Source: Haladaptatus caseinilyticus (GTDB taxonomy: Archaea > Halobacteriota > Halobacteria > Halobacteriales > Haladaptataceae). Taken from it: DNA of 64,000 nt. Numbering within the stretch: the first letter of the stretch is position 1; every line of letters begins with the position of its first letter. The notes under the pieces are model-generated. The model had not been told where the DNA came from and did not search any database. It saw nothing but the letters and a program-made list of their open reading frames with translations. A program made the position numbers and the translations under genes. The stretch lies in contig NZ_CP111042.1 of NCBI RefSeq assembly GCF_026248685.1, positions 248,001-312,000 of the forward strand, read 5' to 3'. Of the stretch, positions 39,395-44,595 are shown one piece after another.

Positions 39395-39925
39395 AAATCT
39401 ATGCGCAAACGCTTCTCGAAAAAGATCCGACCTAAGACGCAGCGATGATCGCGGTATCTCAACTGCGAACAACGGAATCGGGGTCCAGATAGCCATATCG
39501 GCTGACAAACGATAATAAATGCACTCAACAGCGGTCGACAAAGCGGTTCTGGCTGAAATGACTGATGAAAAAATGGTGGACATCCTTGATCTCCACGGGA
39601 TGCCGTCTAAGACGCCAGCCACGGTTACTGACCTTGAGGAACTTCTCGATGCCATCGATGCCGTTCGTGAACGTGGCTATGCCCGCGATGTTCAAGAGGA
39701 CATCAGTGTCTCGGCTATGTCGCGATGGTAGTTACTGACGCAGAATCTCACGTTTTCGGTGCCACGAGTATCCCGAACGGGTTGGTAGGATGTTGGACAC
39801 AGGGATCTCCGAGAACCTCACAAACACACTCGCACAGTCGACCAACGTCATCGAGATCAATACCAAGATCTCGTAATTAGCCGTATCCCTCTCCATCCTC
39901 TGTTTCGATTCTCCTCGGGTTTTCG
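39395..39925 (+). pseudogene. IclR-family regulator remnant, copy B
   Basis: The piece HSTAVDKAVLAEMTDEKMVD (39519 on) matches the effector half of IclR proteins, such as LHCTAFGKAMLAYYSPERVRD in the intact gene at 17120. After about residue 66 homology moves to another frame (GYVAMVVTDAESHVFGATSIP), then again (VGRMLDTGISENL, ending NVIEINTKIS and TAA at 39874-39876). At least two frameshifts are present and the HTH half is missing. About 45 bp past the stop are shared with copy A. The Cdc6 fragment starts immediately after. Confidence 0.75.
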
Positions 39926-40794
39926 GATACCAGCAAAAACGCATTTTCAACGAACTCTACAACGACCTCGAATCCATTGGCGGAACGATTCTTGTTGTGC
40001 TTGACGAAATCGATAGTATTGGCAGTGACGACGACATCTTGTACGAACTCCCGAGGGCCCGCTCCAAACTTGATCTTGATGTGAAAGTCGGTGTTATCGG
40101 CATCTCAAACAACTTCAAATTCCGAGACAATCTGAGTCCGAAGGTCAAGGATACACTCTGTGAAGAAGAAATCCTCTTCCCACCATATGACGCGTCTGAG
40201 CTTCGGAATATTCTCCGGCAGCGTGCTTCGCTTGCGCTTCATGATGACGTGCTTGAATCCGATGTAATTCCACTGTGTGCAGCCTTTTCGGCACAGGATT
40301 CTGGCTCTGCTCGACAAGCACTTCGATTACTGCGAAAGGCTGCCGATATCGCAGAAAATGAAGCGATAGATGAGGGTAAGACGTTGATTTCAGAAGACCA
40401 CGTTCGAGAAGCTGAACATCAAATCCAGCGTCAGCAGGTTGTAGAGGGAATGCATTCATTGACTCGCCAAGGGCAGTACGTGTTATTAACGGTGTGTCAG
40501 CTGGCGGCAAAAGGTGAGCCACCAGAGCGTACAAAAATAATCTATGAGCGCTATTGCGAGGTCCTTCGTAGTCACGGAAGTGATCCACTGAAACGTTGCC
40601 GAGTGCATGACCACTTGTCTGATTTGAGTTTGCACGGTATCCTCCGACTTGTCGATTCCTCAGGAGGGCGTGGGAACTACAACGAGTATGAACTCGATGT
40701 GTCGCTTTCATCTGCATTAGATGCGCTCGAAAACGAATTAGGAGAACAAAATTCGATTCGGGAAACTGCTAAGCGAAATCGTATTCTCGATTGA
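39926..40794 (+). pseudogene. Orc1/Cdc6 replication initiator, 5'-truncated
   Basis: The frame is open from about 39926 and reads KRIFNELYNDLESIGGTILVV, Walker B VVLDEIDSIG, sensor 1 GISNN, sensor 2 GSARQALRLLRKA, and a C-terminal winged helix. The Walker A third of the protein is absent and the frame starts right at the edge of the IclR remnant. A GTG at 39997 could start a shorter product. Without Walker A it should not bind ATP, though DNA binding by the winged helix may persist. It precedes a tandem CCAGTA array. Confidence 0.75.
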
Positions 40795-40802
40795 GCGAGG
40801 AA

Positions 40803-40908
40803 CCAGTACAACCAGTACTGCCAGTATCCTCTCCACTTCTGCCAGTATTTCTCGACCAGTGATGCCAGTTTTGCCAGTACCCTCTCCATTCTTGCCAGTA
40901 AAGATGTA
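40803..40908. repeat. Tandem 53-bp repeat built on CCAGTA
   Basis: CCAGT(A/G/T) words start at 40803, 40812, 40821 and 40842, and again at 40856, 40865, 40874 and 40895. Both sets have the spacing 9-9-21, so two 53-bp units lie in tandem. The repeat follows the Cdc6 fragment. It resembles iteron-type initiator or partition sites. Function is inference. Confidence 0.6.
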
Positions 40909-40947
40909 TTTGTTTTCCATTTTGAGATGTTTGGGTCAGAACCACCG

Positions 40948-40994
40948 TTGCCAATATTCTACTGGATACCTATGTCCAGTGATTTTATTGGCAA
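40948..40994. repeat. Imperfect inverted repeat TTGCCAATA...TATTGGCAA
   Basis: Arm 1 (TTGCCAATATTCTACTGG) lies at 40948-40965 and arm 2 (CCAGTGATTTTATTGGCAA) at 40976-40994. The arms include CCAGT/ACTGG words like those in the adjacent tandem repeat. Confidence 0.55.
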
Positions 40995-41185
40995 TACTGG
41001 TGTGTCTGACGGTTATGACTAAGTATTGGTATTAATGAGAGTGGCTGAGGTCGTGAACTCGAAGGTACTTTCTACGTGCTAGCGACTGGCCACCACCGAA
41101 AGGTGCACGATAGGCATCTGTGAATCTCGGTGATTCGTCTATCTTCTTTTTGGTGCACAAATGTCTGACGTAGGCTTTTGTATAT

Positions 41186-41198
41186 CTATATGCTATAG
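41186..41198. repeat. CTATATGCTATAG element before parA
   Basis: This is the reverse complement of CTATAGCATATAG, which occurs at the ends of parA and of the next gene. It lies 8 bp before the parA start. Confidence 0.5.
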
Positions 41199-41206
41199 CT
41201 ATATGC

Positions 41207-42040
41207 ATGCCAAATAGACCAATTACAGCGTGTGGTTATATCGATAAAGGAGGTGTCGGGAAAACAACGAGTATTGGGCATTTCGGCGTAGCACTCGCCG
41301 AAGAAGGCTATGACGTTCTCCTCATCGACCTTGCCGGAAAACAAGGGGACCTCGCAAAACTCTTCGGTATTGTTGATGAGATCGATCCGGAAGATTGGCC
41401 CAACATCTCGACCGTGTTTCAACCGGAATGGGAACGTGTTGTTGAACAACTCGGCGATGACGCGATCGACCAGCTCATCCACGAGACTGCTGAAGGTGTC
41501 GATTTGATACCTGCCCATCAAGGTCTGGATTCGCTTGACATCGAACTCGAAAGCAAATACAGTGGTCCGAACAAGTACAATCGGTTGGATGAGTTCATTA
41601 CAGAGTTCATCAGTGGGCGATATGACGTCGTTCTCATCGACTTGCCGGGAATGGCGAACAATATCACCTACAATGGCGTGTGGGCGGCCCAACACGTGCT
41701 CACCCCAGTTGAAGCAGGCTCTTTCGAGGCAGATCAGGCACGAGCGCTTCAATACGACCTGCAAAAGCTCTCGGATGGGTACGACCGTGATGTCTCATTG
41801 GAGATGATCATTCCGAACAAGATCGACATGCGCACAAAACTTGCGCGTCGTTACCTGGAGCAATACGAAGACGAATTCGGTGATGCACTTGCTCCTGAAC
41901 CAGTGCCCATGTCCCAGGACATCAGAAATGCCACTGAAAATGGACAGACAATTTTTGCACTCGAAGAGCCGTCGGGAACCGCCAAGGAGGCTATTGACGC
42001 CTATCGGTCGAACGCCCGAGCCTTAGTCGAGCGAGTATAG
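41207..42040 (+). CDS. ParA-type partition ATPase
   Basis: The 277-residue protein has the deviant Walker A KGGVGKTT (14-21), VLLIDLAGKQGD near residue 45 and VVLIDLPGMANN near 145. This marks a MinD/ParA ATPase for plasmid segregation. It has no HTH of its own, so the DNA-binding partner is probably the next gene. AT-rich TATAG repeats sit before it, between it and the partner, and after the partner, which is a plausible centromere layout. The stop codon lies inside one repeat. Confidence 0.85.
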   Translation: MPNRPITACGYIDKGGVGKTTSIGHFGVALAEEGYDVLLIDLAGKQGDLAKLFGIVDEIDPEDWPNISTVFQPEWERVVEQLGDDAIDQLIHETAEGVDLIPAHQGLDSLDIELESKYSGPNKYNRLDEFITEFISGRYDVVLIDLPGMANNITYNGVWAAQHVLTPVEAGSFEADQARALQYDLQKLSDGYDRDVSLEMIIPNKIDMRTKLARRYLEQYEDEFGDALAPEPVPMSQDIRNATENGQTIFALEEPSGTAKEAIDAYRSNARALVERV

Positions 42041-42047
42041 CATATAG
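42036..42047. repeat. TATAGCATATAG element between parA and its partner
   Basis: The repeat overlaps the parA stop codon (42038-42040). It is followed by more TATAG/ATATGG words up to about 42080. Confidence 0.5.
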
Positions 42048-42105
42048 GTATAGAATATGGCTATAGAAAATAGATATGGGATTTGGATACAGGAGATTGA
42101 TATAG

Positions 42106-42468
42106 ATGAGCAATGATGAACTCGAAGAACTGAAGAAAAGTACTCAGCGTGGTAGTCGTGTTGAAGAAGGCGCTAGCAGAAACTCTCGTGACTTCGTTGA
42201 TGAGCTTGTGGATGCAATCGACGAGGTTCAAAACGGCGATGCGAGTAAAACACTCTCGCTCTACGATCCAAAACTTTCAGCAGTCATGGTCGCTCTTCAA
42301 CGGGATCCAGAACTGTTGTCCGACTGGGATATGGAGGAAGTGGATCGATCGGCTATCATCCGCACTGCATTGTGGCGTGGATTAGAACAGTTGGATGTGG
42401 ATGTTGAGGCGAAAAACAAGGAAGCCATCAAACGATATGCAACCGAGAATGCAGACAACCTTCTATAG
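42106..42468 (+). CDS. Probable ParA partner (small DNA-binding protein)
   Basis: The 120-residue product has a charged N-terminus (about residues 1-30) and a predicted helical rest (RDFVDELVDAIDEV, DWDMEEVDRSAIIRTALWRGL). The C-terminal DRSAIIRTALWRGLEQLDVDVE segment resembles the helix-helix part of ribbon-helix-helix proteins. It starts 65 bp after parA and is flanked by TATAG repeats on both sides. By position it is the centromere-binding partner. No close family was recognised. Confidence 0.55.
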   Translation: MSNDELEELKKSTQRGSRVEEGASRNSRDFVDELVDAIDEVQNGDASKTLSLYDPKLSAVMVALQRDPELLSDWDMEEVDRSAIIRTALWRGLEQLDVDVEAKNKEAIKRYATENADNLL

Positions 42469-42514
42469 CATATAGATATCACATATAGGAATAGAGTATA
42501 GATATCACATATAG
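42463..42514. repeat. TATAG cluster after the partner gene
   Basis: CTATAGCATATAG (42463-42475) overlaps the partner's stop. Two direct copies of ATAGATATCACATATAG follow at 42472-42488 and 42498-42514, starting 26 bp apart. Confidence 0.55.
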
Positions 42515-42759
42515 AAATGTGATATGGGTATATTGGAATTTTAGAAGGACTGAGTTGCCACAATCGTCCCCATCTTCAACCACTAGTGTGAACCGGAAAC
42601 CCGATTTTATTGATGACAAAGTGGGGTGGGAGTGATCGTCAGTCTATGAAACACTGGAACGAATGTTAGAATTGTCTCGCCAGAATCGACTGGGGATCTC
42701 TGATTTCTAGCTCATTGGTTTTGAATATTCATTCCAAAACAGACAATCAATAACCGTAA

Positions 42760-43271: not shown

Positions 43272-43763
43272 TCATCTACAAAGGCAGTTGAAATGATCTC
43301 GTGGATGATCTCGAAGGAACGTATGTATCGTTATCGCAAGTTCGAGCATCGCATCTGCCTGCTCGGCGGTAACTGCCCGCCCTGAATAGTACGACGCCGC
43401 TCGGTTCTCGTTGTACAGTGCTTGGAAGTCTTCTTTCAAATCGTCGCTGATCACTCCCAGTGCAAACGCGCGTTGGTATGCGTACTCATGATCCATGAAA
43501 TCATGGACTGCATCGTCGCTCATTGCGATAGCATAGAATTCGAATGAGCGTTCAATCGCCCCAAACGCGAGTTCGACGACGGCTGTATGATAGCCGTTTT
43601 GATCCTGAAGGGTCTGTGCAGCAGCAATCAGACGGCATGCCTTCTTGAGCTGTGCTTCCTCTTCGGTCAGTTCGGCAAGTCCTTCTTCCGGCGTTCCACC
43701 TCGCTCAAAAGACCGATGGGCCTGTTCGAGTACATCTGTGACCACCTTCGGATCGTCACTCAT
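43272..43763 (-). CDS. HEPN-domain protein (HepT-like toxin of an MNT-HEPN pair)
   Basis: The 163-residue all-helical protein overlaps the end of the nucleotidyltransferase gene by 8 bp, a standard MNT-HEPN layout. The active-site region reads ENRAASYYSGR around R121. The His of the usual RX4-6H motif is replaced by Tyr (R-A-A-S-Y-Y) in this spot. HEPN toxins cleave RNA and are silenced when the MNT partner AMPylates a nearby Tyr. Whether this variant is catalytic is unclear. Confidence 0.7.
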   Translation of the reverse strand: MSDDPKVVTDVLEQAHRSFERGGTPEEGLAELTEEEAQLKKACRLIAAAQTLQDQNGYHTAVVELAFGAIERSFEFYAIAMSDDAVHDFMDHEYAYQRAFALGVISDDLKEDFQALYNENRAASYYSGRAVTAEQADAMLELAITIHTFLRDHPRDHFNCLCR

Positions 43764-44466
43764 CGACTAGATCCTCCATTATCGATTGGAATTTCTCGAA
43801 CTCATCGGTCTTGGAAAGTGTGATCCCAGAGACGACGGTTTCAGCGATATCTTCTGTGTGTGCGGGCACAGACGCAGGAGATTCAACAACGATATGATAG
43901 TCGTATCGTTCATCGTTGAATTGGTCTGATGCGAGCTCTTTACTGATTTGAGCTGCACGTCGTTGGTTGCGTCCTCGGTGTTCTCGAACCAGCACCCAGA
44001 GATCAATGTCGCTTTGTCGATCCGCTTCACCACGTGCGACACTCCCGTAGACGAGAATTCCGAGGACGTCATCGAGTTCACCATTCAGTGTCTCGACAAC
44101 GGCTCGTACCGGTGCGTGGAATTCTGCCTGTGGGATACGAAGCAAGGAATTGTCTGGAATGGTCACCCGCTCCCGATTGATACTGACGAGCTTCTTGTTC
44201 CCTTCGTGTCGAATGTGGACGAGATCATTTGCTGCGAGCACGTCGACTGCTTTTCCGACGGATCGATGTGTGACGTCTACCATGGACGCAAGTGTTCGGA
44301 TCGTATACTCTTCGAACGGGCGGTCAATTAAAAACTGGAGTAATTCATCCGTTGCTTTGTGCCGATAGAGATTTGAATTGTTGGCTGGTACAGGCACCTG
44401 TATCGTCGCTCCGGATGTTTCTTCACCTCCTGTTGACATCGTTTGTTGGCTACTTTCGCTCTCCAT
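43756..44466 (-). CDS. HTH-nucleotidyltransferase (MntA-like antitoxin)
   Basis: From the ATG at 44466 the protein has 236 residues. A winged HTH spans about residues 40-100 (EYTIRTLASMVDVTHRSVGKAVDVL). The minimal nucleotidyltransferase core has GS at 141-142 in VYGSVARGE and the metal Asp pair D153/D155 (SDIDL). With the HEPN gene downstream it makes an MNT-HEPN toxin-antitoxin pair. The N-terminal HTH fusion may give autoregulation. A TATA-like TTTATA lies about 28 nt upstream, and a palindrome at 44596-44616 lies further up. Confidence 0.8.
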   Translation of the reverse strand: MESESSQQTMSTGGEETSGATIQVPVPANNSNLYRHKATDELLQFLIDRPFEEYTIRTLASMVDVTHRSVGKAVDVLAANDLVHIRHEGNKKLVSINRERVTIPDNSLLRIPQAEFHAPVRAVVETLNGELDDVLGILVYGSVARGEADRQSDIDLWVLVREHRGRNQRRAAQISKELASDQFNDERYDYHIVVESPASVPAHTEDIAETVVSGITLSKTDEFEKFQSIMEDLVDE

Positions 44467-44595
44467 AGATACTCTATGTAACCACAACTATAAAAGCTTT
44501 ATACGTAATTCCAGCTATTAGCTATCTGATACCGGCGTAGATACGTGCAGAACCGGTGTGCGGGGCAGGAAGACACAGGAAAATGGTTGCAGTGA

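Follow-up and report, generated by a model that had tools for sequence, protein, structure and literature searches.

A candidate type Ib-like partition locus with flanking repeat arrays on a plasmid of Haladaptatus caseinilyticus

Described partition systems and the haloarchaeal locus

SegB is an archaeal ribbon-helix-helix (RHH) partition protein. In SegAB, the chromosome partition system of the Sulfolobales, the gene for a ParA-type ATPase is followed by that for SegB, and sites lie just 5' of the ATPase start. The SegB site, TCTAGA-S-TCTAGA, spans 13 bp, its two hexamers being separated by a single base pair (PMC12284271). Among bacterial type Ib systems, delta-omega-parS of pSM19035 has contiguous short repeats that overlap promoters and serve as both centromere and operator, and at least four contiguous repeats are needed for full ATPase activation (PMC9499535). 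In ParF-ParG-parH of TP228, also type Ib, the flexible N-terminal tail of ParG carries an arginine-finger-like motif (PMC7308502). The AspA-ParB-ParA cassette of pNOB8 partitions an archaeal plasmid and has its own centromeric site (PMC5120986). The combination of a ParA, a small RHH protein and repeats is, as a kind of system, already known.

Here we describe a parA locus in a 64,000-nucleotide stretch of Haladaptatus caseinilyticus DNA (the window, to whose numbering coordinates refer unless prefixed C7). Comparison with relatives, structural models and analogy make it very probable that this is a haloarchaeal plasmid partition locus of type Ib-like or SegAB-like kind, whose small partner protein would bind the repeat arrays as both centromere and operator. 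Three features of type Ib are present, namely a ParA without an N-terminal helix-turn-helix (HTH) domain, a small partner gene directly downstream, and repeats at the operon promoter. The locus resembles SegAB in its gene order, the partner being a predicted RHH protein, in having sites just 5' of the ATPase start, and in the geometry of its repeat unit (CTATAG-C-ATATAG), which is that of the SegB site (PMC12284271). In contrast to SegAB, it is plasmid-borne, no sequence similarity between its partner and the SegB structures is detectable, its site sequence varies by subfamily, and its sites are grouped in arrays on the flanks of the operon instead of being spread over a chromosome as those of SegB are.

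With pSM19035 the locus shares a ParA-type ATPase, a small RHH partner (here predicted) and contiguous repeats overlapping a promoter, but the bacterial system has 7-bp WATCACW heptads at separate promoters, whereas the haloarchaeal periods are 6 to 13 bp on both sides of one operon, and no sequence similarity to the haloarchaeal family was detected. TP228 likewise pairs ParA with an RHH protein, and its ParG tail motif is comparable to R18 of the present partner; however, it is bacterial, its parH is made up of degenerate tetramer boxes separated by AT-rich spacers, and again sequence similarity was not detected. Both the pNOB8 cassette and, probably, this locus partition an archaeal plasmid and include a centromeric site of their own (here a candidate), but the pNOB8 cassette encodes three proteins, including a winged-helix site-binder and a ParB adaptor. 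An AspA-ParB-ParA cassette was rejected because the window and its relatives have a two-gene operon, with neither a third gene nor a ParB adaptor. We found no description of the haloarchaeal family, the partner, the flanking arrays or the residue-repeat correspondence reported below in the literature searched, and the accessible parts of reviews of archaeal segregation, which treat SegAB and AspA-ParBA, describe no haloarchaeal ParA-RHH system; subscription journals and preprints lay outside the scope of both statements.

Gene pair, arrays and promoter

Table 1. Positions of the parA locus features in the window (residue numbers for protein elements)
Feature	Position	Strand	Remarks
orc1/cdc6, 5'-truncated	39925-40794	+	5' of parA; first residue corresponds to residue 130 of the sister plasmid's 418-aa protein
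Irregular CCAGTA/TGCCAGTA repeats	40803-40901	+	between orc1 and parA; also in the sister plasmid
Putative parA promoter	41160-41182	+	GTCTGAC (41163-41169), then TATA-like CTTTTGTA (41175-41182)
Upstream array	41182-41205	-	candidate operator and centromere half; lies 3' of TATA box and 5' of parA start; holds exact CTATAGCATATAG
parA	41207-42040	+	277 aa; ParA/Soj-type ATPase; deviant Walker A KGGVGKTT; no N-terminal HTH domain
Intergenic array	42035-42105	+	five 13-bp units over parA stop codon and 65-bp gap
Shine-Dalgarno-like GGAG	42093-42096		inside intergenic array
Partner gene	42106-42468	+	120 aa; predicted RHH, candidate centromere-binding protein
Partner beta-strand SKTLSLYD (predicted)	residues 47-54		key residue Y53; alignments and AlphaFold2 models
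Partner helix B (predicted)	about residues 81-93		alignments and AlphaFold2 models
Downstream array	42463-42533	+	main centromere candidate; about five and a half 13-bp units

The ParA protein matches ParA/Soj structures in the PDB and, in Pfam, AAA_31 (5e-20) and CbiA (8e-15) and no other domain. Its KGGVGKTT motif starts at residue 14 of 277, and K14, G15, G16, K19, T20 and T21 are invariant among 18 relatives.

The initial annotation described the partner as not a standard ParB, and our searches agree: no ParB family (N-terminal or CTPase domain) is matched in Pfam or NCBIfam, and a classical ParABS system with an HTH/CTPase ParB was rejected on this ground. With 56 members as queries, Pfam, NCBIfam and PHROGs yielded scattered weak matches and no curated family for the partner. 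Its family alignment comprises an N-terminal motif, LEELRxQTxxGxR, a low-confidence linker, a strand-like xKTxSxRD and a segment, DRSExxRLAxRxGL, that resembles helix B of RHH proteins. In AlphaFold2 models the mean pLDDT is at least 90 over residues 31-110 (blocks of ten), and the N-terminal tail, which contains an arginine (R18) kept in 55 of the 56 sequences, is of low confidence. Weak matches to the RHH_1 profile occur in six of the 56 members (best E 0.02), and hhalign against a home-made haloarchaeal RHH profile gave a short match in which helix B alone was aligned. Sequence searches of the PDB with the partner family profiles gave no meaningful match and did not reach the SegB structures up to an E value of 10, for which reason a sequence homologue of SegB was rejected. 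With the model of a longer family member, Foldseek placed SegB (free and DNA-bound) in the top two ranks, 7duv with a probability of 0.89 and 7dv2 with 0.75, TM-scores normalised by the SegB target being 0.71 and 0.60, at a non-significant E value of about 1 (0.98). The window partner itself gave nothing significant against PDB and viral models, SegB ranking sixth (E 7.5). An RHH fold is likely for the partner, and archaeal SegB comes closest to the fold predicted for it, at a similarity below significance.

Three occurrences of a single repeat had been proposed at the boundaries of the two genes, and all three positions proved right, two of them exact. CTATAGCATATAG is found on the minus strand at 41186-41198, ending 8 bp 5' of the parA ATG (41207), and on the plus strand at 42463-42475, where it covers the partner stop codon (TAG, 42466-42468); the parA stop codon (TAG, 42038-42040) falls within a third copy, GTATAGCATATAG at 42035-42047, which has one mismatch. 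At up to two mismatches the window contains four matches to CTATAGCATATAG, compared with 0.45 expected, a number reached in none of 100 shuffles. The 4.8-Mb genome has both of its exact copies at the parA locus, which also holds three of the four places at up to one mismatch, and no second place with two or more near-exact copies was found in it. Chance is therefore rejected as the source of these copies, and a wide occurrence of the repeat elsewhere, which would have spoken against the initial annotation, is not seen in the whole genome, where one further place exists at up to one mismatch.

The three copies lie in arrays that repeat every 13 bp, and no other units of these arrays are as well conserved; each unit is composed of a hexamer, a 1-bp spacer and a hexamer. 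The downstream array reads, in order, CTATAGCATATAG ATATCACATATAG GAATAGAGTATAG ATATCACATATAG AAATGTGATATGG GTATAT. Two 17-bp direct repeats with a 26-bp period, as previously noted, do exist here; the identical stretches are, however, 18 bp long (42471-42488 and 42497-42514), and 26 bp is two 13-bp units. Self-match at a lag of 13 is 0.58 in the downstream and 0.69 in the intergenic array, against maxima of 0.52 and 0.54, respectively, in 5000 shuffles. The upstream array is a short block with a TATA-like box on one side and the parA ATG on the other.

Compared with the sister plasmid, from Haladaptatus pallidirubidus, the upstream array is the same in 24 of 24 bases (41183-41206), and the next 210 bp on its 5' side are 84% identical. 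The intergenic array is 94% identical and the downstream array 82%, both without indels, and identity in the stretch that follows the latter is down to 52%, with 22 columns of gaps. Differences between the two plasmids are at third codon positions in 30 of 32 cases in parA and in 13 of 14 in the partner gene.

Within 130 bp 5' of parA, 62 of 93 non-redundant operons carry GTCTGAC, for which the expectation elsewhere in the same loci is 0.008 per 130 bp. From its position and from the TTTA/TATA-like sequence that follows it, we infer that GTCTGAC and the TATA-like element together constitute the parA promoter. GTCTGAC(G) stays constant in these 62 promoters while the adjoining repeats vary, and with the same spacing it is rare in the genome.

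The operon family and its repeat classes

The parA-partner pair is linked in about 120 haloarchaeal loci, many of them on plasmids and megaplasmids, and the partner is present in 85 of 391 haloarchaeal genomes and 32 of 86 genera. Phage records contained a distant ParA only (PhiCh1, 28%), which lies outside this family. Nearly all other operons have the two genes overlapping or at most 3 bp apart; among about 118 operons, the 65-bp gap with its intergenic array is found in the window operon and the sister plasmid alone, and one further operon, unlike these two, has a gap.

The same layout was sought in other haloarchaeal plasmids, as had been suggested, and was found: relatives carry repeats at two outer places, the parA promoter and just 3' of the partner gene, and from one subfamily to another the repeat sequence varies while the array positions are kept. 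In the 93 non-redundant operons used to compare flanks, the 5' and 3' flanks of the same operon share a mean of 10.6 7-mers, compared with 3.3 for the flanks of mismatched operons and 1.8 elsewhere in the same locus. We give periods per subfamily and set aside a family-wide lag analysis, which was unusable because codon periodicity confounded its coding control. The 13-bp period is that of the window operon and of the NLT subfamily; in aromatic subfamilies the distance from one CTATAG to the next is mostly 12 bp, and GTTTNC is spaced at 6 or 12 bp.

The repeat class covaries with the residue at the seventh position of the partner's predicted beta-strand. Of 34 operons with an aromatic residue (W/Y) there, 30 have CTATAG in their flanks, as against none of the 52 with R/K, and this hexamer ranks first among all occurring hexamers for the contrast. 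Its density in aromatic operons is 15.7 per kb in the flanks and 0.4 per kb in the genes. Strands S.WD, SFYD, TAYD and SLYD go with CTATAG, SKTLSVRD with TATACG, AKTFAARD and PKTIAVRD with CGTTTGCG, NLTLRD and NLTMRD with GTATCTG/GATACAG, and PENINARD with GGTTAC; as an exception, two aromatic operons (QRTVSFWD) have CATATATGG in place of CTATAG. A rule written beforehand and applied to unseen loci found CTATAG in four of five aromatic operons and one of 19 others (p = 0.002), although Fisher p-values overstate independence here because the aromatic state changes about seven times on the ParA tree, with two contrasts on strongly supported branches and none in the opposite direction. The aromatic operon that was missed is located at the end of a contig, where hardly any 5' sequence is available.

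These observations suggest, tentatively and at somewhat less than even odds, that one strand residue (W/Y versus R) sets the centromere class (CTATAG versus TATACG, CGTTTGCG, GTATCTG or GGTTAC), and that haloarchaeal plasmids have repeatedly given rise to new incompatibility groups through joint changes of this residue and of every repeat copy on both sides of the operon.

Proposed mechanism, alternatives and meaning

The earlier proposal that the repeats are centromere and operator sites of a partner other than ParB is favoured by the conserved operon, the kept places of the arrays, the tracking of repeat sequence with the strand residue and the SegB-like predicted fold. In such a system ParA would be a nucleoid-binding ATPase, and the partner would bind the AT-rich arrays as an RHH dimer through the strand SKTLSLYD, probably with two dimers to each 13-bp unit. 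Partner dimers would assemble into the partition complex on the downstream and intergenic arrays, and those on the upstream array would repress the operon, that array being in the place expected of an operator because it lies between the TATA box and the ATG. By analogy with pSM19035 and TP228 ParG, the partner may coat the arrays and bridge them to nucleoid-bound ParA, and, as in TP228 ParG, its flexible tail with the near-invariant Arg18 may touch ParA and stimulate the ATPase; ParA gradients would then move plasmid copies apart.

If the arrays were operators only, with the partner autoregulating its operon and the true centromere elsewhere on the plasmid, the place of the upstream array, with the TATA box on one side and the start codon on the other, is what one would see. 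Nearly all relatives, however, also have a longer downstream array, which shares its repeats with the upstream one and is unable to repress parA; nowhere else in the genome do two or more near-exact copies lie together, and in pSM19035 the RHH partition proteins serve both functions at one kind of site (PMC9499535). We regard an operator-only role as improbable. Far less probable still is that the arrays are replication iterons of the neighbouring Orc1/Cdc6, or part of a small mobile element. An orc1 gene does lie 5' of the operon in both the window plasmid and the sister, but most relatives have arrays without an adjoining orc1, the array sequence tracks the partner's strand residue, and a separate repeat family (TGCCAGTA) adjoins orc1; the CCAGTA/TGCCAGTA repeats are probably the Orc1 origin repeats.

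The status of this particular copy is a separate matter. Homology to the sister plasmid is limited to 39925-42609 and starts inside orc1, which here has lost its first 129 codons and is otherwise 97.6% identical to the sister protein. The replicon, a 389-kb contig (C7), has two further ParA genes, one of them with the same kind of partner and a ParA of 56% identity. Because of the shortened orc1 and these further ParA loci, the window locus may no longer be the working copy, and some weight is due to the reading that an orc1-par block entered a larger plasmid by insertion and is now decaying. Decay is unlikely, however, in view of intact parA and partner genes, substitutions nearly all at third positions and arrays still in 13-bp register, although the truncation of orc1 may postdate most of the substitutions, which weakens this counter-evidence. 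Either of two pictures may hold: C7 is a composite plasmid with several partition modules, this locus among them, or the locus was captured and, though a relic, has stayed intact.

The second operon of the family on this replicon lies about 5 kb outside the window (C7:241731-242953, minus strand), with the strand QKTVSFWD and CTATAG-type repeats; the replicon would then hold two centromere systems, between which cross-talk is possible. Downstream of the locus, at 43272-44487 on the minus strand, a gene for a nucleotidyltransferase-domain protein with a winged-helix part (43756-44487) overlaps that of a small helical protein (43272-43763). The pair resembles an MNT-HEPN type toxin-antitoxin, Pfam backing the nucleotidyltransferase domain alone.

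To our knowledge, the inheritance of haloarchaeal plasmids, megaplasmids and secondary chromosomes is largely uncharacterised. The present analysis defines a common, so far unnamed partition family and names a likely centromere for each subfamily, together with a predicted protein-DNA specificity code that is testable by swapping one residue. With such a code one could predict from sequence to which compatibility group a haloarchaeal plasmid belongs, and could build stable vectors; the family would also extend SegB-like partition from crenarchaeal chromosomes to euryarchaeal plasmids.
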